Assembly (NCBI RefSeq): GCF_002754245.1
Contig: NZ_PEEX01000001.1
Coordinates: 4,692,001 to 4,756,000 of the forward strand
Origin: Chryseobacterium sp. 52
GTDB lineage: Bacteria > Bacteroidota > Bacteroidia > Flavobacteriales > Weeksellaceae
DNA length: 64,000 nt
Reading direction: 5' to 3'
A program made the translations under genes and the position numbers. Shown here one piece after another: positions 24,146-36,924 of this stretch. The notes beneath the pieces are model-generated. The model was given only the letters and a program-made list of their open reading frames with translations. It searched no databases and was not told where the DNA came from. The stretch's first letter is position 1. The number at the start of each line of letters is the position of its first letter.

Positions 24146-24201
24146 ATCCAACAGGATATCATGTAAAATTATCTGGCTTATATTTCTGACTTTTGTCAAT
24201 T

Positions 24202-24220
24202 ATTTTAATTTATTCTAAAT
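24202..24220. promoter_or_regulatory. Fur-box-like palindrome upstream of the TonB receptor operon
   Basis: ATTTTAATTTATTCTAAAT matches 16 of 19 positions of the palindromic Fur box that I recall from the related genus Riemerella. A further half-site TTATTTAGA lies at 24266-24274, just past the -7 box. Suggests iron-dependent repression. Confidence 0.5.
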
Positions 24221-24248
24221 AAGCTATAAATAATTTCATTAAATTTAA

Positions 24249-24256
24249 TACTTTTG
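24249..24256 (+). promoter_or_regulatory. -7 promoter box of the TonB receptor operon
   Basis: TACTTTTG, 28 bases before the ATG and between two Fur-like sites. Confidence 0.6.
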
Positions 24257-24284
24257 CGGTCAATTTTATTTAGACAAAATAAGG

Positions 24285-27038
24285 ATGACCAGATTTTTAT
24301 CTTTCGCTTTTTTTATTTTTTTCTCTACGCAATTTTTATATGCTCAAGATGAGAAATCTCCATTAAACATTACTGTTTTAAATGAAAACAATAAAGAATT
24401 AACGGGAGTTTCTATTGTTGTCGACCAAGTACCTGTCCTTACGGATAAACAGGGCATTGCCAATGTTTCCTTATCCAACGGGAAGCATCATATTAAAATT
24501 TCTTATCCGGAATATGAGGATAAAGAACTTACTGTTACCCTTACTTCTTCACAAAATATAACTGTTAATCTTCGACCTGTCAATAAGCTGGAAGAAGTGG
24601 TTATATTCTCCAAAGAAAGCAAAGGTCTTACGACCAAGTCTATTATTGACAGACAGGCAATGCAGCACTTACAGCCATCAAGTTTTACCGATCTTATGGA
24701 ATTACTTCCGGGAGGGTTGGCAAGGAGCCCCAATTTAAGTTCTGTCAACAGACCTATTCTTCGTGAAAATCCGGGCAGCCTTTCAAGTAATGATTATAAA
24801 ACCTCATCATTAGGGGTACAGTTTATGGTTGATGACAACATCATCAATTCAAATGCAGATATGCAACTTTCTGTAGACAATCAGCAATTTTCAGGAGCCG
24901 GGCAAGCCAGAGAAACGGCGTATTCAGGAATTGACATGAGAACCATATCTACCAATGATATTGAAAGGGTAGAAATTATCCGTGGAATTCCATCTGCTTC
25001 TTATGGAGATTTAACGTCCGGACTGATTAAAATTGAACGCAGAATAGGACAGACTCCTCTTCAGGCAAGATTTAAAGCTGACGGTTTTAGCAAGCAGTAT
25101 TATGTGGGAAAAGGCTTTAAAATAAATGATAAGTGGCAAATGAGCGCAAGTGTGGATTTCTTAGATTCAAAAGCGACTCCGACTGATGATTATGAAAACT
25201 ATCAGCGTATCACCGCTTCACTTCGTTCAAAGAAAATATCTACACTTTGGTCCAGAACTTTAGAATGGAAATCAAATATTGATTTTTCTTCAAATATTGA
25301 TAATAAAAGATACGATCCGGACAACGGATATCCATCGACAGATAAATACGAATCCAATAACAAAAAAATAAGTTTTGCCAATAACTTTATTTATCATTTG
25401 GATAAAAATTCATTCTTTAATAAAGTAATATTAAATACGTCTATCCGTGCCGGATTTGAAAAGATAGAACAGAGAAAACTTGTCCAGTTATCCGGACCCC
25501 GTTCTTTTTCTCTGGCTTATGAACAAGGGGAAAACGTTGGTTTCTTTCCCGATTTACGTTACATCACTGAATTTTCAACAGAAGGAAAACCTCTGGATTT
25601 AACTGCTCTTTTCAAAATAAATGGCACAAGAAAAACTGCAGGGATCACTCACGAATATGAAGCGGGTCTTGACTGGAGGTATTCAAAAAACAATGGAAAC
25701 GGTTTGGTTTATAATATGCTGACCCCTCCTTCTGCAGCCTCCGGAATCGAAAGACCAAGAGCTTTTAACGATATTCCGGCATCCAATTTATTAGCCGCTT
25801 TTGCAGGAGATCAGATGAGTTATGCGATCAACCAGCATAAATTCACTTTGTATACAGGTTTGAGGTTATCTAAAAATTTAGGAATTGACAATTCGTACGC
25901 CATCAGCAAAAAAGTGTTTACAGAGCCCCGACTGAATTTCCAATACAGCCTGCCTCATCTGATGATTAATAATTATCCATTGAAAACGGATGTGACATTA
26001 GGTTATGGCTTATTTTACAAGCAACCTACTCTTTTGATGCTTTATCCTAATAAAGATTACTGGGATTATACGCAACTGAATTATTATCACAACGATGCGC
26101 GATACCGTTACGTAAACTTTATGACGTATGTACAGTCCAGAGAAAATAAAGAAATTGAAGCCGCAAAAAGTATAAAAAAAGAAATCCGTTTAGATCTGAG
26201 CTATAGAAATCATGATTTCTTTATCACCTATTTCAAAGAAAACATGAAGAATGGTTTCCGTGACATGGCCAATTCAGTAGTCCACACGTACAAACAATAT
26301 GATGCTTCACAAGTTGACATTAATCAATGGACACCAAACGGACCAGACCTTACAAATGTTTCTTATGCTGTAAAAAACATATTCAATGAATACAGAACGG
26401 TTGAAAACGGAAGCGAAACCTTGAAACAAGGAATCGAATTCGGATATACTTCGCCCAGAATCAAAGCGATTAATACAAGATTTACTTTAACGGGTGCTTA
26501 TTTCAAAACCCAATACAGAAATTCACTTCCTATTATTTACAGACCTACCATCTCTGTTGGCACTGAGCCTTTTCCGTATTATGGAATTTATAAAAGCGAT
26601 TATGGATATGTATACTCTAATATGAACTACAATTTACTGATCGACACTTATTTACCAAGTTTGGATATGATTGTTTCTGCATCAGTACAAGGAAGTTTAT
26701 TTGATCACAGAAAAAATGATCACAGGATTGCCGATCCGATTTCTTATTACGGAGCAGATGGAATTGAGCATCCATTTACCGATGCAGACAGAACAGACAT
26801 TTATAAACAATGGTTGGTAAGAAATGTATCAACATCAGATAATCTGGCGACTTTATACACATTTACAGTCACAGGAAATATTAAAGTAACGAAAAGTATC
26901 TATAAAGCTTTAAAAACTTCATTGTTTGTCAACAGACTTTTCAACTACAGCGCTCCTTATACTTTCAATGATGTCAAAGTATACAGAAAAGGGAATAATA
27001 CGCCTTATTTCGGAATGGAATTAAACTACAATTTTTAA
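24285..27038 (+). CDS. TonB-dependent outer-membrane receptor (DUF4876-linked operon)
   Basis: A 917-residue receptor: signal peptide ending FLYAQ, a carboxypeptidase-regulatory-like N-terminal domain (about 27-105), a TonB-box-like stretch around EEVVIFSKES, a plug domain (about 115-245, with DIERVEIIRGIPSASYGDLTSG) and a 22-strand-type barrel ending in Phe (LNYNF). It imports an unknown ligand across the outer membrane using TonB energy. There is no SusD partner; instead the next three genes encode a DUF4876 lipoprotein, a DUF6850 barrel and a di-heme peroxidase, all tightly spaced. The Fur-like site and heme enzyme point to a metal or metal complex as cargo (inference). Confidence 0.9.
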   Translation: MTRFLSFAFFIFFSTQFLYAQDEKSPLNITVLNENNKELTGVSIVVDQVPVLTDKQGIANVSLSNGKHHIKISYPEYEDKELTVTLTSSQNITVNLRPVNKLEEVVIFSKESKGLTTKSIIDRQAMQHLQPSSFTDLMELLPGGLARSPNLSSVNRPILRENPGSLSSNDYKTSSLGVQFMVDDNIINSNADMQLSVDNQQFSGAGQARETAYSGIDMRTISTNDIERVEIIRGIPSASYGDLTSGLIKIERRIGQTPLQARFKADGFSKQYYVGKGFKINDKWQMSASVDFLDSKATPTDDYENYQRITASLRSKKISTLWSRTLEWKSNIDFSSNIDNKRYDPDNGYPSTDKYESNNKKISFANNFIYHLDKNSFFNKVILNTSIRAGFEKIEQRKLVQLSGPRSFSLAYEQGENVGFFPDLRYITEFSTEGKPLDLTALFKINGTRKTAGITHEYEAGLDWRYSKNNGNGLVYNMLTPPSAASGIERPRAFNDIPASNLLAAFAGDQMSYAINQHKFTLYTGLRLSKNLGIDNSYAISKKVFTEPRLNFQYSLPHLMINNYPLKTDVTLGYGLFYKQPTLLMLYPNKDYWDYTQLNYYHNDARYRYVNFMTYVQSRENKEIEAAKSIKKEIRLDLSYRNHDFFITYFKENMKNGFRDMANSVVHTYKQYDASQVDINQWTPNGPDLTNVSYAVKNIFNEYRTVENGSETLKQGIEFGYTSPRIKAINTRFTLTGAYFKTQYRNSLPIIYRPTISVGTEPFPYYGIYKSDYGYVYSNMNYNLLIDTYLPSLDMIVSASVQGSLFDHRKNDHRIADPISYYGADGIEHPFTDADRTDIYKQWLVRNVSTSDNLATLYTFTVTGNIKVTKSIYKALKTSLFVNRLFNYSAPYTFNDVKVYRKGNNTPYFGMELNYNF

Positions 27039-27057
27039 TATATATCAAAAAAATAAC

Positions 27058-28287
27058 ATGAAAAAAAGAGTTTTATTATTAAGTTTAGCAGCAATGATGG
27101 CCACAACATTCACTGTCACATCTTGTTCTAGTGATGATGATTTTGGGGTAACAGCTGCACAAAACGGAGTCTTAACTTTATCTTTTTCGGGTGAAAATAT
27201 TTCGTCTTATGAAACCTTAGATATTGAACTTAAAGAGGTAAATACGGGAGCTATTATTAAAAAAACTTCACAAAAAGCAAGTTCAACCTCTATTGAAGTA
27301 CCTTATGGTTCTTATAAAATTACAGTAAACGGTCAGGTAATAACCACTCAGCTGGACACCACTGCTGCTGCCGGAACAGGTAAGGCAGATATCATCACTT
27401 TAGCAACTAACGTTAATATCCCTCTCTATTTCAAGGCATTCCATAATGACTTTATTATTGAGGAAGTATTCTTTACCGGAATCAAAACTACAGATGGTAA
27501 AAATTACAATTCAGGCCGTTATTTCAAAATAACCAACAATTCTGATAAAGTATTGTATGCAGATGGTTTAATTATCGGGCAGTCAGAATTCCTTACAACG
27601 GACGACAAAAACCCGACACCTTATGATGTAAACCAATATTTTGCAGTAAAAGGAGTAATGGTACTACCTGGAAGCGGAGCTCAATATCCGGTACAATCAG
27701 GAGATTTCATTGTTATTGCTGATAATGCGATAGACCACAGACAGAATACAAGCAATGCATATGATCTACACAATGCAGACTTCGAATTCCCTTCTACTAA
27801 CCCAAGCCTTGGACAGGTTGACAATCCTTCTGTACCGAATGTAAAAGTGATCTATACTCAGATGACGTACAATATGTTCTTTTTACACAACAGAGGATTT
27901 GAAAGCTACGTGATTGCCCGTTTTCCAAATGGCGAAAATGAGACTACATTCTTACAGAACCGTAAGTACAACTATTCATACGTCAACAGTGCTGGTGGGG
28001 TAACCGCTAAAAGTATTTATTCAATTCCAAATTCATGGATCATTGATGCTGAAAACAACAGTATTCCAACGAAGTTCATTCATACATTAACTTCAGCAAG
28101 TATTGATGCGGGATGGGCATCTGCCGGAACAACTGACAACGATGCTACACGTTACGGAAAATCGGTAAGACGTAAAATTACAGGGAAAATGTCAGAAAAT
28201 AAAAACCTGTACATGGATACAAACAATTCATCAAATGATTTTGTAAAAGATTCTGAACCGAGTTTAAAAAACGGTATTGTACACTAA
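27058..28287 (+). CDS. DUF4876 lipoprotein
   Basis: A 409-residue lipoprotein: signal ending TVTSC followed by SSDDD, a surface-export-like acidic stretch typical of Bacteroidota. An N-terminal beta domain (about 35-135) precedes a larger domain with FHNDFIIEEVFFTG and lamin-tail-like features (RYFKITNNSDKVLYADGL). The family DUF4876 has no known function. It lies 19 bases after the receptor, so it is likely a cell-surface ligand-binding partner. It contains several Trp and Tyr residues that could be substrates of the operon's MauG-like enzyme, but this is conjecture. Confidence 0.82.
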   Translation: MKKRVLLLSLAAMMATTFTVTSCSSDDDFGVTAAQNGVLTLSFSGENISSYETLDIELKEVNTGAIIKKTSQKASSTSIEVPYGSYKITVNGQVITTQLDTTAAAGTGKADIITLATNVNIPLYFKAFHNDFIIEEVFFTGIKTTDGKNYNSGRYFKITNNSDKVLYADGLIIGQSEFLTTDDKNPTPYDVNQYFAVKGVMVLPGSGAQYPVQSGDFIVIADNAIDHRQNTSNAYDLHNADFEFPSTNPSLGQVDNPSVPNVKVIYTQMTYNMFFLHNRGFESYVIARFPNGENETTFLQNRKYNYSYVNSAGGVTAKSIYSIPNSWIIDAENNSIPTKFIHTLTSASIDAGWASAGTTDNDATRYGKSVRRKITGKMSENKNLYMDTNNSSNDFVKDSEPSLKNGIVH

Positions 28288-28317
28288 GATACTGTTTGAC
28301 ATTCATTAAAATAAGTT

Positions 28318-29841
28318 ATGCTTAATATAAAAAAGTCCTTCTATCTGCTATTGGTTAGCTTAAGTACGTTTTCTGTAAAAGCGCAGGACAGTCTCACGCT
28401 TTTTAAAACGATCAATAATCAATATAATGTAGAAAGAAGTTTTAAAAATAATTATTACTATAATCCGGCAGCAATGTCGGGTTATAGTTCTGTTTCGTTT
28501 TCAGAATTTAATGTCGGATATCATGATAAAACTGATAAAGTTTATCGCCAACAGTTTGGAAGTGGAGACAAAGGATTGACGGTTGAAGCGAAATCATTTC
28601 AAAAACTAAAAAACAACAGAGCTGTCTGGGGAAATGCAAGTTATCAGAATTTAACGATCAAAAACCTTAACCGGGTTGAGAATCTTGATTATGAACGTAT
28701 TGCTCCTTATATCTCTTCTGATTCCGTTGGAGGAAATCTGAATGTGGAAAGGTATGAGTTTGCGGGAGGTTATTTACAAAAAACAAAACGCTGGACATTT
28801 GCAGGTCAGGTAAGTTATCTGGCTCAGCTAGGCTATCGTTCAAGAGATCCAAGACTGAGAAGTACAACCTCTGATTTACGGATCAATGCAGGCATTAACT
28901 ACAAGGTATTCAGAGAATATGAAGTGGGGGTTTTTGGTGAATTCAATAAATATACTCAGAATAGCTCTATTACCTTTCAAAGCTTACTGGGCAAACCCTT
29001 CGTATATCAAATGACAGGTTTTGGACATTCCAACAATATTTTCAATGGGGGAACAGGCCCCAGCACAACTTTTGAAGAGTTTGGCGTAAAAGGAGGAGTG
29101 CAAATTACCAATAAACAAGGCAAAGACTTCTATCTTCAGGCTAACGTAGGAAGCTCAAATAATATTAAAAGCTACAGCGATATCGCAACCTATTATGACC
29201 TTTCAGATCTGGAAAATAAAACATTTGAATTTGAAGGTGCCAAATTTTTTAATGTTAATGAAAAGCACCGTCTTGGACTTTTAGCCAACTATTACGCTTC
29301 AAAAAGAACAGGTTCTGAATACGGCTATTCCTTGAATACAGCCAGTATGACTCAGATTTTCAAAAGAAAAGCGTACCGTAGAGAAAACTATGCAACCACT
29401 ATAAAAGGTTTCTATCAATACAACCACGACGGATTCTCTATTACCGCTACTCCGTTTTTCGGGTATGAGGAAATCAAAGAACGAAGATTAAATCCAAATT
29501 CCGGACAGAAATTCAAATATGCTCACTTCGGTATTAATGTGGATTATAAACAGCAGATCAAAGAAAATCAAGTGCTGACATTCCAGCCGTATTTTTCTAA
29601 AAGAACGGTCAATAAATCTATCAACGCTTTGGTTCCCGCAGGAAATGCAGGTATTGATGGATGGGTATCTCAGGATTATCTGTTCCAGGCAAGCGACATC
29701 ACAACAGCCGGAGCATCATTAAGATACGATTTGAAACTGGAAAAATTACCCGCATTCTTTGTAAGTGCACACTACCAATCACAAAAAATTCAGGAAAAAA
29801 ACAATAATTTTGTAGGCGGAAGTATAGGTATAACATTTTAG
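28318..29841 (+). CDS. DUF6850 outer-membrane beta-barrel protein
   Basis: A 507-residue protein with signal peptide (ending SVKAQ) and alternating hydrophobic/polar strands throughout, ending in VGGSIGITF, whose final Phe is the usual outer-membrane barrel signature. Matches the DUF6850 family as I remember it; function unknown. It lies 30 bases after the DUF4876 gene and only three bases before the peroxidase gene. It may be a second outer-membrane component of the same uptake or export system. Confidence 0.78.
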   Translation: MLNIKKSFYLLLVSLSTFSVKAQDSLTLFKTINNQYNVERSFKNNYYYNPAAMSGYSSVSFSEFNVGYHDKTDKVYRQQFGSGDKGLTVEAKSFQKLKNNRAVWGNASYQNLTIKNLNRVENLDYERIAPYISSDSVGGNLNVERYEFAGGYLQKTKRWTFAGQVSYLAQLGYRSRDPRLRSTTSDLRINAGINYKVFREYEVGVFGEFNKYTQNSSITFQSLLGKPFVYQMTGFGHSNNIFNGGTGPSTTFEEFGVKGGVQITNKQGKDFYLQANVGSSNNIKSYSDIATYYDLSDLENKTFEFEGAKFFNVNEKHRLGLLANYYASKRTGSEYGYSLNTASMTQIFKRKAYRRENYATTIKGFYQYNHDGFSITATPFFGYEEIKERRLNPNSGQKFKYAHFGINVDYKQQIKENQVLTFQPYFSKRTVNKSINALVPAGNAGIDGWVSQDYLFQASDITTAGASLRYDLKLEKLPAFFVSAHYQSQKIQEKNNNFVGGSIGITF

Positions 29842-29844
29842 GGA

Positions 29845-30993
29845 ATGAAAAGAGGTATATATTGGGTTTTAGGATTGGTTTTATTCGTATTGTGGAGTTT
29901 TACTTCTAAGGTAAACCGTGACCTTTCGAATATTGAAGATCCCACAATCAAGGATATTGTAAAAAGTTATAAAAAAGCAATCACCGAATGGCCAAAACCT
30001 GATATCGATTACGGAGTAAAATGGAAAGAATTCGCTCCTATTAAAAATGATACCGCTTTTTTCACAGAGCAGGATAAACCTAATGTGATCTTAGGTAAAA
30101 TGCTTTTTTTTGATCCTAAACTATCCAAATCCAGTCAGGTTTCCTGCAGTTCATGCCACGACCCCGAAATGGGCTGGTCAGACCGGAGACGGGTCGCTTT
30201 GGGAAATGACCATCTTTTAGGAAACAGAAATTCTATTTCATTATATAATATTGCAGAACGCCAGTCGTTTTTCTGGGATGGCAGAGCAAAAACGCTGGAG
30301 GAGCAGGCCGCTGGTCCGCTTAGCGCTCATCACGAAATGGCCATGGATGTGAAGACCCTGCCGGCAAAAATACAGGCTGTAAAAGGATATACAGAACTTT
30401 TTAAAAAAGCGTATGGTACTGACAAAGTAACTTATGACAAAATTGTAAAAGCTATAGCAGACTTTCAAAAAACCATTAAAAGCCAGCCAAGCCGTTTCGA
30501 TAAATTTCTGGAAGGAAAGTATACCGCTTTATCTGACCAGGAAATCTACGGAATGCATATTTTCCGGACAAAAGCCCGTTGTATGAATTGCCATAACGGA
30601 CAATATCTTACCGACGAATCTTTCCACAATATTGGGCTTACCTATTACAAAAAGAAATACCAGGATCTGGGATTGTATGACACGACCAAAAAGCCGGAAG
30701 ATGTCGGTAAATTCAGGACACCACAATTAAGAGATTTAATGCTCACCCAACCGTGGATGCACAACGGATTATTCAACGAGCTTGAAGGCGTCGTGAATAT
30801 CTACAACAGCGGAATGCACCAGCTGGATCCAAGTCCTGAGAAAAAACAACTGGATCCGCTACACCCTGTGACCGATCCGCTATTAAAGCCCCTACATTTA
30901 ACAACAGAAGAAACCAAAGCTCTCGTTTCCTTCCTCGAGGCACTTTCAGGAACAAGATACAAAATGAGACGTCCGGAATTTCCGGTGGAATAG
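29845..30993 (+). CDS. Di-heme cytochrome c peroxidase / MauG family protein
   Basis: A 382-residue periplasmic protein with an uncleaved or cleaved N-terminal hydrophobic segment (about 5-20). Two c-type heme sites: CSSCH at 101-105 and CMNCH at 246-250, with the family motif FFWDGRAKTLEEQAAGPL between them. Family members either reduce H2O2 or, as in MauG and MbnH, oxidise Trp or Tyr in a partner protein. As the last gene of an operon with a TonB receptor and lipoprotein of unknown function, a protein-modifying role is worth considering. Confidence 0.9.
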   Translation: MKRGIYWVLGLVLFVLWSFTSKVNRDLSNIEDPTIKDIVKSYKKAITEWPKPDIDYGVKWKEFAPIKNDTAFFTEQDKPNVILGKMLFFDPKLSKSSQVSCSSCHDPEMGWSDRRRVALGNDHLLGNRNSISLYNIAERQSFFWDGRAKTLEEQAAGPLSAHHEMAMDVKTLPAKIQAVKGYTELFKKAYGTDKVTYDKIVKAIADFQKTIKSQPSRFDKFLEGKYTALSDQEIYGMHIFRTKARCMNCHNGQYLTDESFHNIGLTYYKKKYQDLGLYDTTKKPEDVGKFRTPQLRDLMLTQPWMHNGLFNELEGVVNIYNSGMHQLDPSPEKKQLDPLHPVTDPLLKPLHLTTEETKALVSFLEALSGTRYKMRRPEFPVE

Positions 30994-34971: not shown

Positions 34972-36684
34972 TTAGTTAATGATAAGTTTTTTGATGGTTA
35001 TTTCGTTTTTTATTTTCAATTTTAACAGATATGCTCCTTTTGTAAAATGTGAAACATTGATAGACTGATCATTATTTAAAATGATGTTCATCTTTCTTCC
35101 GTCCATAGCATACATCTCCACATCCGAAACTTTTTCTCCTTTAATAAATACTTTTTCTGAGGCAGGATTCGGATAAACAGAAACCTGACTGTCAATACTT
35201 ACATCACGTGTTCCCAACGTATTCTGCACAGATGCGTCAGAATATACTTTAGAAGCATCTATTGATCTTACACTCCAGTATACATTCGGAATGGAAGGAT
35301 CAAGATCCAGGAACCATGATGGTGTGGTCACTACATATTTGGCAAGATTCGCTGCTCCGGGTGTAGAGCCTACTTTAATTTCGTAGCGCAATGCGTTAAC
35401 TGGTGTTTTATCATCAGATGCACCACTCCATGAGAATTTAAAACGGTTTCCGGTTTTTGTCACATTAAGGACTGCAGGAGGTACAGGTTTCAGATTAACT
35501 TCAGTAGAAGTATTTTTGAAAATTTTGGTAAGTGAAGGCATGCCCGGATCTGCCCAATCAAATCCGGCCAATAAAACATCCAGACGGTGGTCATTGTCAA
35601 AGTCAAGTAGATTCACAAAACCCGGACCTCCTAAAATATGCAGACCTGTAGGTATATTTTCAGTAAAATTTTGAGTGGAAGGATTGTATAAGAACGTTTT
35701 TACTACGGCATCGTTGTTATCATCATTTCCGGAAACAATAAAATCATAATATCCGTCATTATTCAAGTCACCTGTAGTTACAGATGAATCTGCGATCTCA
35801 GGGATATTAATCAGGTTTTTATTCAAATGTCCTGTTCCGTCATTCACAAAAACAGCTAGAAATCCTGAATAATTATTATCCTGACCGGTAATTACAATAT
35901 CCTGATAACCATCAGCATTGAAATCCGCAAAGTCCATTTTACCACTTGTCACAGGGGTCAGATCTTGTGCAAACGTCAAGGTTCCAGCCTGGTTCAGATA
36001 GACTTTACCTATCGGAGCATCATTTTGAGCTACCCCAAAAATAACCAGATCCAAAAGGTTATCATTATTAAGATCTATAAACTTAAAGCTTCCGTTCTGT
36101 GTTCCGGGCTGCCAGCCTTTAAAAATTTCAAAGTCATTTCCGGTATTTTTATAAAAATCCAGATTATTCACAAAACCGGTTCCCTCTACATATTGAGTTC
36201 CGTTGATGGCATAATCCATTTTACCGTCATTGTTGAAATCAAAAGCTTCCAAAGATCCGTAAATCTTTCCGGCAAGATCAGCTTCTTTTATAAAGCCTGT
36301 ACCTGTGTTCCGAAATCTATAGTGTTTATAGTTTACAATATCATTATAACTTAATCCTGTAGAAATAATATCTAAAAGACCATCATTATTAAAATCCATG
36401 AATTTTATATCTCCCAGGTGGGTTGCATCTGCCCCCAGGTCAGCATAAGGAACCAGTGAAGTCCCATTATTCTTGTATACTTCATTGAAAGATGTATCAA
36501 CATTTCCATCACCATCGCTATCAATCGCTCCATTGATCACTACATCCTGCTTTCCATCATTATCCATATCCGCTGCATCAGCTGATCCGTAATAAAAATT
36601 TTTCATATCGGTCTGGATTTCAGTGTAATTCTGAGCCACAAGCCCAATAGGAAGCATGGATAAAAGAATACAAATTCTCTTCAT
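34972..36684 (-). CDS. T9SS-secreted FG-GAP/VCBS repeat protein
   Basis: A 570-residue secreted protein. Signal peptide ending GLVAQ; then at least seven FG-GAP/VCBS-type blades with Ca-binding DxNxDGxxD loops (for example DMDNDGKQD, DFNNDGLLD, DLNNDGYYD), predicted to form a beta-propeller; a short FN3-like domain (about 435-500); and a C-terminal type A sorting domain (VYPNPASEKVFIKGE...IKKLIIN) for type IX secretion. The start at 36682-36684 is chosen because it begins the signal; 29 upstream residues are not signal-like. Probably a calcium-binding surface or released protein of unknown ligand. Confidence 0.88.
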   Translation of the reverse strand: MKRICILLSMLPIGLVAQNYTEIQTDMKNFYYGSADAADMDNDGKQDVVINGAIDSDGDGNVDTSFNEVYKNNGTSLVPYADLGADATHLGDIKFMDFNNDGLLDIISTGLSYNDIVNYKHYRFRNTGTGFIKEADLAGKIYGSLEAFDFNNDGKMDYAINGTQYVEGTGFVNNLDFYKNTGNDFEIFKGWQPGTQNGSFKFIDLNNDNLLDLVIFGVAQNDAPIGKVYLNQAGTLTFAQDLTPVTSGKMDFADFNADGYQDIVITGQDNNYSGFLAVFVNDGTGHLNKNLINIPEIADSSVTTGDLNNDGYYDFIVSGNDDNNDAVVKTFLYNPSTQNFTENIPTGLHILGGPGFVNLLDFDNDHRLDVLLAGFDWADPGMPSLTKIFKNTSTEVNLKPVPPAVLNVTKTGNRFKFSWSGASDDKTPVNALRYEIKVGSTPGAANLAKYVVTTPSWFLDLDPSIPNVYWSVRSIDASKVYSDASVQNTLGTRDVSIDSQVSVYPNPASEKVFIKGEKVSDVEMYAMDGRKMNIILNNDQSINVSHFTKGAYLLKLKIKNEITIKKLIIN

Positions 36685-36924
36685 ATTATTTTTATTTAGA
36701 TTAATTAAAAACAAAGGTACGGGATTCGAATTTGCTTTTACAAGAAAGCTTACATGAAATATATCAGTCACTTGGCTCAGCCTATCTCAGAATTTCACCT
36801 ATTTTAAAATTCATGATTATTAATCAGCCAGTTATTTGTAAATATTTTCCAAAAGATTTGTCTATATAAAAAATTCTTCGTTATTTTGCACTCTCAAATA
36901 TTATACAAATAAGAACATCGAGAT

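Follow-up and report, generated by a model that had tools for sequence, protein, structure and literature searches.

What an outer-membrane importer, two proteins of unassigned families and a periplasmic di-heme enzyme do together is the question raised by a four-gene operon of Chryseobacterium sp. 52, located in a 64,000-nucleotide stretch of contig NZ_PEEX01000001.1 (positions 4,692,001 to 4,756,000; this whole stretch is called the window, and its own numbering is used below). The genes encode, in this order, a TonB-dependent receptor, a DUF4876 lipoprotein, a DUF6850 family protein and a MauG/MbnH-type di-heme enzyme. From its gene content and order, its conservation, an upstream palindrome and the distribution of the enzyme among clades, all read directly from genomes, the operon is probably an iron-starvation operon that imports an iron complex, be it siderophore-, haem- or protein-bound iron. 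The cargo is likely iron and not copper, because a Fur-like palindrome lies upstream and induction by iron limitation has been published for DUF4876/TonB relatives.

All four genes lie on the + strand, separated by 19, 30 and 3 bases; the first open reading frame (ORF) starts at ATG 24285, and 24202-24284 is upstream DNA. ORFs and Pfam matches confirm the four-gene operon, the families and the gaps described in an earlier sequence-only reading, which also stated that SusD and inner-membrane transporters are missing; none was seen by eye beside the operon among ORFs of at least 120 amino acids (aa) between 20000 and 36000. The locus does not belong with SusC/SusD systems, which have SusD beside the receptor, and its proteins are of other families. 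The host genome (5.3 Mb, single contig) contains a second, diverged full copy of the operon at about 4.05 Mb, with identical gene order. When a species-level genome collection was scanned with the operon enzymes and the best 79 of 529 confirmed loci were kept (loci and genomes carry L and G numbers here), 72 of these 79 had receptor, DUF4876, DUF6850 and enzyme one after another on a single strand, a count that includes two loci with DUF4876 in pieces (L118, L131), one with two DUF4876 ORFs (L111) and two with a short receptor ORF (L109, L116). In two of the 79 (L102, L126) the enzyme gene lies next to the receptor gene in divergent orientation, and the full core is missing in five (L085, L098, L108, L120 and L129, the last a short contig). 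Since a second full copy exists in the genome and 72 of the 79 best enzyme relatives have the identical order, the operon is more than a chance arrangement. Median gaps over 77 operons are 21, 11 and 8 bases. The 79-locus set was picked by similarity to the operon enzymes and is uninformative on other CCP_MauG proteins; the four others of the host genome sit outside such a core. As side observations, DUF4876 is split into several ORFs in L118 and L131, both Chryseobacterium, and the receptor ORF of L118 is also short (580 aa); in L081, L082 and L083 (Myroides) the end of another such operon, DUF6850 plus enzyme, lies directly upstream of the full one; and in L108 (4461-10155, a Sphingobacterium metagenome-assembled genome) an operon-type enzyme lies downstream of a locus that by eye looks SusC/SusD-like.

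In a survey of 296 genomes of the same phylum, each at least 90% complete, DUF6850 exceeded its cut-off in 29 genomes and DUF4876 in 29. The 37 survey loci, mapped with profiles grown from the window's proteins, cover every DUF4876 genome except the host genome; G076 and G193, with weak DUF6850 matches in long frames and no DUF4876, were excluded. DUF6850 directly follows DUF4876 in 34 of the 37 loci, the others being L037 (three ORFs between the two), L048 (no DUF6850 by the window-derived profile, a weak Pfam match about 3 kb on) and L035 (a 5.3-kb contig with DUF6850 alone). Six of the 37 have the enzyme after DUF6850, with a 133-aa ORF in between in L025, and both host-genome copies have it there too. 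TonB receptor, DUF4876 and DUF6850 are the core of the system in this survey, and the MauG-type enzyme is a feature of one clade of that core; the co-occurrence of the four families, proposed as a check on the sequence-only reading, is supported. Enzyme-less survey loci, unlike the operon, carry other genes after DUF6850. Downstream neighbours were scanned in four DUF6850 loci, and the next gene encodes a YCF48/BNR propeller with a type IX secretion tail in L036, L038 and L049 and a 742-aa HEAT-repeat protein, with protease-like motifs by eye, in L016; M28 and M16 peptidases are found further downstream in L037 and L044.

Upstream of the receptor gene stands a 23-bp (base-pair) inverted repeat, TTATTTAGA-N5-TCTAAATAA. 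It was first spotted by eye in 28 upstream regions, which are included in the later test set, and was scored as present with at most four mismatches within 200 bases of a start. By this measure 67 of 75 enzyme-bearing operons have it before the receptor (20 of 27 when dereplicated), vs 32 of 685 other ORF starts of the same loci, and it precedes DUF4876, DUF6850 and the enzyme in 1, 0 and 0 of 77; dinucleotide shuffles gave a mean best of 6.3 mismatches. Among 27 operons tested that lack a same-strand downstream enzyme, L021, L126 and L102, whose enzyme is in trans or divergent, have the palindrome with 1, 1 and 4 mismatches, and L026, with its enzyme in trans, has none before the receptor. 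Enzyme genes outside their usual place carry it in five of nine cases (L147, L120, L085, L102, L126; not L149, L098, L108 or L129, the last with 179 bases available). In Pedobacter polysacchareus (L120, 8825-10026) the palindrome stands immediately before the enzyme gene, next to which no core genes were found, and in other Pedobacter (L099, L101) the same palindrome stands before the receptor. The best match in the host genome, with one mismatch, precedes feoA-feoB, and for this reason the palindrome is read as a putative Fur box. Sites with two mismatches precede two TonB receptors and one PNPOx-family gene, the second operon has the palindrome at 4059353 with three mismatches, and the genome encodes three Fur-family proteins. 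Between palindrome and receptor, TACTTTTG fits the Bacteroidota -7 promoter element, TAnnTTTG, and is a candidate for it.

Coordinates of the operon, its second copy and the genes that follow DUF6850 in enzyme-less operons (window numbering unless a locus is given)
Feature	Position	Strand	Basis or remark
Palindrome TTATTTTAATTTATTCTAAATAA, 23 bp	24200..24222	+	2 mismatches to TTATTTAGA-N5-TCTAAATAA; putative Fur box
TACTTTTG, candidate -7 promoter element	24249..24256	+	predicted from sequence
TonB-dependent outer-membrane receptor, 917 aa	24285..27038	+	ORF and Pfam
DUF4876 lipoprotein, 409 aa	27058..28287	+	Pfam DUF4876 8.8e-47
DUF6850 outer-membrane barrel family protein (NCBI name), 507 aa	28318..29841	+	Pfam DUF6850 1.2e-73
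MauG/MbnH-type di-heme enzyme, 382 aa	29845..30993	+	CCP_MauG 4.2e-53; CSSCH 101-105, CMNCH 246-250, W144, Y320
Second copy, receptor	L009 13301-10506		descending coordinates
Second copy, DUF4876	L009 10479-9265		descending coordinates
Second copy, DUF6850	L009 9263-7749		descending coordinates
Second copy, enzyme	L009 7735-6599		descending coordinates
Gene after DUF6850	L016 10192-12420		enzyme-less operon
Gene after DUF6850	L036 5795-8014		enzyme-less operon
Gene after DUF6850	L038 4185-6431		enzyme-less operon
Gene after DUF6850	L049 9246-11456		enzyme-less operon

Copper acquisition, as proposed for MbnP/MbnH, would also place an enzyme of the same superfamily beside a TonB receptor, but it is very improbable here. 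A Pfam scan found no MbnP domain in the operon proteins, and an MbnP-family protein (PF20243, 1e-34) with an MbnH-like di-heme enzyme is encoded elsewhere in the host genome (L011, 4706-6665), with a SCO1 protein and a TonB receptor nearby. That pair, perhaps a copper locus, lacks the palindrome, the best site within 200 bases having 7 mismatches; its MbnP-family protein falls below the NCBI MbnP equivalog cut-off and its enzyme, at 225.8, below the MbnH cut-off of 362.85. The copper/MbnP reading was rejected on account of this separate pair without the palindrome. The sequence-only reading had proposed metal acquisition: a metal stands, namely iron, given the Fur-like palindrome and the published induction, and copper does not.

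As for the enzyme, it belongs to the CCP_MauG superfamily, with 180.4 bits to PF03150 (cut-off 25.6) and two CxxCH motifs, and aligns with the solved di-heme peroxidase 1iqc (residues 75-319) and with MauG (81-373). Across all 90 operon-type enzymes C101-H105, C246-H250, W111, W144, E164, H306 and Y320 are invariant. With MauG, which acts in tryptophan tryptophylquinone biosynthesis, the enzyme shares the two c-type haem motifs and the conserved W144 and Y320, which we take to correspond to the inter-haem Trp and axial Tyr of MauG; however, it scores 218.9 against the MauG equivalog TIGR03791 (cut-off 443.85) and 205.1 against the MbnH equivalog TIGR04039 (cut-off 362.85), and no methylamine dehydrogenase genes were seen by eye beside the operon. 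The Y320 column holds Met in the solved peroxidases 4aal and 3hq9, presumably the axial ligand of the second haem in classical peroxidases, so that the enzyme, with Tyr in 90 of 90 members, is not a classical bacterial cytochrome c peroxidase. The four other CCP_MauG proteins of the host genome share this Tyr, which is therefore not specific to the operon enzyme. MauG-type enzymes are known for protein cofactor synthesis and copper sites, and the operon enzyme appears MauG/MbnH-like in general type, with partner-protein oxidation as a possible property. Of the MbnH comparison made earlier, the general type (two haem motifs, Tyr for Met) holds and membership does not, since there is no MbnP domain, neither cut-off is reached and an MbnP-family/MbnH-like pair without the palindrome exists separately.

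In five genomes compared, each with two operons, every enzyme tracks its own operon (identity 0.87-0.89 within a type, 0.59 between types), and among 28 representatives the distances between enzymes rise with the distances between receptors, DUF4876 proteins and DUF6850 proteins (r 0.89, 0.84 and 0.87), values also expected from shared descent alone. On a tree of the three core proteins from 54 representatives, made by a quick method with SH-aLRT (Shimodaira-Hasegawa-like approximate likelihood ratio test) support only and with three long branches (L033, L016, L023) placed less certainly, enzyme presence needs two changes: one clade holds the enzyme, with one later loss inside it. Thirty rows have the enzyme beside the core, both divergent ones included; labels apply to each core copy, and L030 is scored as lacking the enzyme, though one occurs at the other core of its genome (L029). 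For L021 and L026 an operon-type enzyme is encoded away from the core (L147 and L149, 561 and 504 bits); 20 CCP_MauG proteins, a part of the survey's CCP_MauG matches, were examined, and the remaining 18 reach 258 bits or less. Three rows inside the clade lack the enzyme (L017, L018, L020), and they come from G238 and G230, of one genus, in which a CCP_MauG search found none at all. COX1 was found in 27 of 29 genomes, G238 and G230 being the only two without; the search covered COX1 and no further terminal oxidase, cytochrome bd for instance. Since both COX1 and the enzyme are gone from these genomes, within the clade the enzyme was lost where the haem-copper oxidase was lost, and the core was kept. 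A family-wide split between aerobes and anaerobes was rejected, because many of the 27 COX1 genomes have no enzyme beside the core; the relation holds only for the loss inside the clade. The enzyme is likely an oxidative accessory of aerobic lineages.

A rival reading makes the enzyme a periplasmic peroxidase that shields the uptake machinery or the periplasm from peroxide during iron import. The best solved matches of the enzyme are di-heme cytochrome c peroxidases, and its loss together with the haem-copper oxidase fits this role, but all 90 members have Tyr where the aligned peroxidases have Met, which speaks against it, and it is odd for a general detoxifier that each paralogous operon in the five genomes keeps its own enzyme. 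Tyr in place of Met in MauG goes with poor peroxidase activity. We regard this role as improbable, though far less so than copper acquisition.

Somewhat less doubtful, but still unlikely, is the reading in which the enzyme acts in the periplasm on DUF4876 or DUF6850, oxidising a Trp or Tyr there and so building a metal site. Di-heme enzymes such as MauG, MbnH and SACCP are said to act on partner proteins in this manner, and the operon enzymes have the MauG/MbnH-type Y320 in 90 of 90, aligned with the Met of classical peroxidases. Enzyme-linked operons were compared with other operons column by column. In DUF6850, all 46 enzyme-linked representatives have Y146 and D177, vs 6 and 7, respectively, of the 25 others. 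Position 327 of DUF4876 holds Trp (W327) in 74 of 78 enzyme-linked vs 3 of 30 other sequences (L102 and L126 counted among the others), and receptor Y821 is Tyr in 32 of 32 vs 12 of 24. A precedent is the surface-associated MopE, in which Trp is converted to kynurenine, possibly via a di-heme partner, according to the part of the source available (PMC3621798). However, W327 and Y146 are retained in the genus that lost the enzyme, and residues retained after its loss are not explained by it. The six other DUF6850 proteins with Tyr146 are those of L021 and L026 (enzyme in trans), L017, L018 and L020 (enzyme lost) and L016, and D177 behaves like Y146. W327 is moreover absent from the enzyme-bearing operons L023, L107, L109 and L115, from the divergent L102 and L126 and from the in-trans L021 and L026, and half of the enzyme-less receptors also carry Y821. 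No aromatic column of DUF4876 combines at least 93% in one group and at most 50% in the other. W327, Y146 and D177, enzyme-specific at first look, were rejected as modification sites; they are clade markers, and no partner aromatic strictly tracks the enzyme. The proposal of the sequence-only reading that the enzyme modifies DUF4876 or DUF6850, to be checked by invariant Trp or Tyr in DUF4876, finds no support in residue conservation.

Of the partner proteins themselves, the receptor has a carboxypeptidase-regulatory-like N-terminal domain (Pfam Plug 2.2e-6; CarbopepD_reg_2 below its cut-off). In the DUF4876 protein, SSDDDF follows a lipobox-like Cys23, a pattern that fits a surface lipoprotein export signal; the protein is a relative of the solved structure 4q1z, titled 'Putative lipoprotein', and its closest named homologs are Chryseobacterium proteins with 95% and 90% identity. 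In the case of DUF6850, searches against solved structures gave no credible relative, one being empty and another returning five chance-level matches (E 0.009 to 0.26). Elsewhere in the window, another palindrome with three mismatches (36692-36714) lies just upstream of ATG 36684; the gene below it encodes a repeat protein (34972-36684, minus strand) that looks type IX-secreted by eye and may share iron control.

Iron regulation of DUF4876/TonB loci is already in print (PMC10434189, PMC10470040). In the accessible parts of these sources, PG1019-PG1022 of Porphyromonas gingivalis rises 20.8- to 214.5-fold and BT3625-BT3633 of Bacteroides thetaiotaomicron 36.7- to 128-fold without iron (PMC10434189), and a P. 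gingivalis DUF4876 gene stands in a table of hemin-responsive genes (PMC10470040). As in the operon, where the receptor lies directly beside DUF4876, the iron-limitation-induced loci PG1019-22 and BT1933-39/BT3625-33 combine a TonB receptor with DUF4876; unlike the operon, they have no MauG-type enzyme named in the part of the report available (PMC10434189). The MbnP/MbnH, CorA/CorB and MopE/SACCP pairs share with the operon a MauG-type di-heme enzyme beside a partner protein, and MbnP/MbnH often occurs near a TonB-dependent transporter, as far as the source was available (PMC3621798); the partner here, in contrast, is DUF4876/DUF6850 with no MbnP domain, and control appears to be iron-type, while that of CorA/CorB is by copper. 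The BT2473-82 locus, with thiol oxidoreductase, peptidase M75 and cytochrome c biogenesis genes, rises 69.4- to 323.7-fold under iron limitation in the part of that report available (PMC10434189). It resembles the operon in having an oxidoreductase, but the enzyme name and the partners differ. The thiol oxidoreductase of BT2473-82 is presumably di-heme. Iron transcriptomes of Elizabethkingia and Riemerella could not be mapped to the operon from the accessible parts of the reports (PMC7221216, PMC5429918). The literature searched, without most subscription papers and partly in excerpt, describes no iron-regulated MauG-type enzyme with DUF4876; it holds no paper on DUF6850, no Flavobacteri paper joining iron limitation, cytochrome c peroxidase and TonB-dependent receptor, no Flavobacteri/Bacteroidetes paper joining Fur box, iron and TonB, and nothing of use on imelysin, di-heme, iron and TonB. 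The 23-bp palindrome upstream of enzyme-bearing operons is new here. The earlier statement that the system has no assigned function fits the enzyme-bearing version in the literature searched; for DUF4876/TonB loci, control by iron has been published.

If the operon is an iron-starvation operon, low iron would cause Fur to leave the palindrome, the DUF4876 lipoprotein would capture a ligand on the cell surface, perhaps assisted by the DUF6850 barrel, and the TonB receptor would bring it into the periplasm, where the di-heme enzyme would carry out an oxidation dependent on peroxide or oxygen and useful to aerobic members only. As targets of this oxidation, a protein of the complex and the imported ligand seem equally plausible, neither being a favourite; peroxide itself is less plausible, and any other target least. 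Several points weigh against this account of iron import. Seven of the 27 dereplicated enzyme-bearing operons (L025, L033, L086, L107, L115, L117, L127) lack the palindrome, all three Chitinophaga operons among them, and it is missing from each of the 23 enzyme-less operons tested, whose best site has 5 mismatches. In the host genome most of the 15 sites with at most two mismatches lie at genes without an evident iron role, and a reversed-pattern control gave 21 sites vs 47 for the palindrome; given these control sites and non-iron neighbours, single palindrome sites are weak evidence, and the binding of Fur is itself predicted. The receptor has no known ligand and, by sequence search, no match among solved structures at E 0.01, many COX1 genomes carry cores without the enzyme, the literature searched held no expression report for an enzyme-bearing operon, and the published iron data, in the part available, come from species for which no enzyme is named (PMC10434189).

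A more specific version of iron import can be put forward tentatively, namely that the operon is an iron-dedicated counterpart of MbnP/MbnH and MopE: the enzyme might install an oxidised residue in DUF4876 or DUF6850, or open the imported iron complex oxidatively, thereby enabling iron capture or release in air, with relatives that give up the haem-copper oxidase keeping the receptor and dropping the enzyme. If so, a cell under iron starvation would spend two haems on a MauG-type enzyme. A di-heme enzyme is costly when iron is short, and its production then suggests a specific, as yet nameless catalytic step in iron acquisition. In Chryseobacterium, Elizabethkingia, Empedobacter, Myroides, Flavobacterium and Pedobacter, a MauG-type enzyme is tied to an apparent Fur regulon, and DUF4876 and DUF6850, two unassigned families, gain a testable role.

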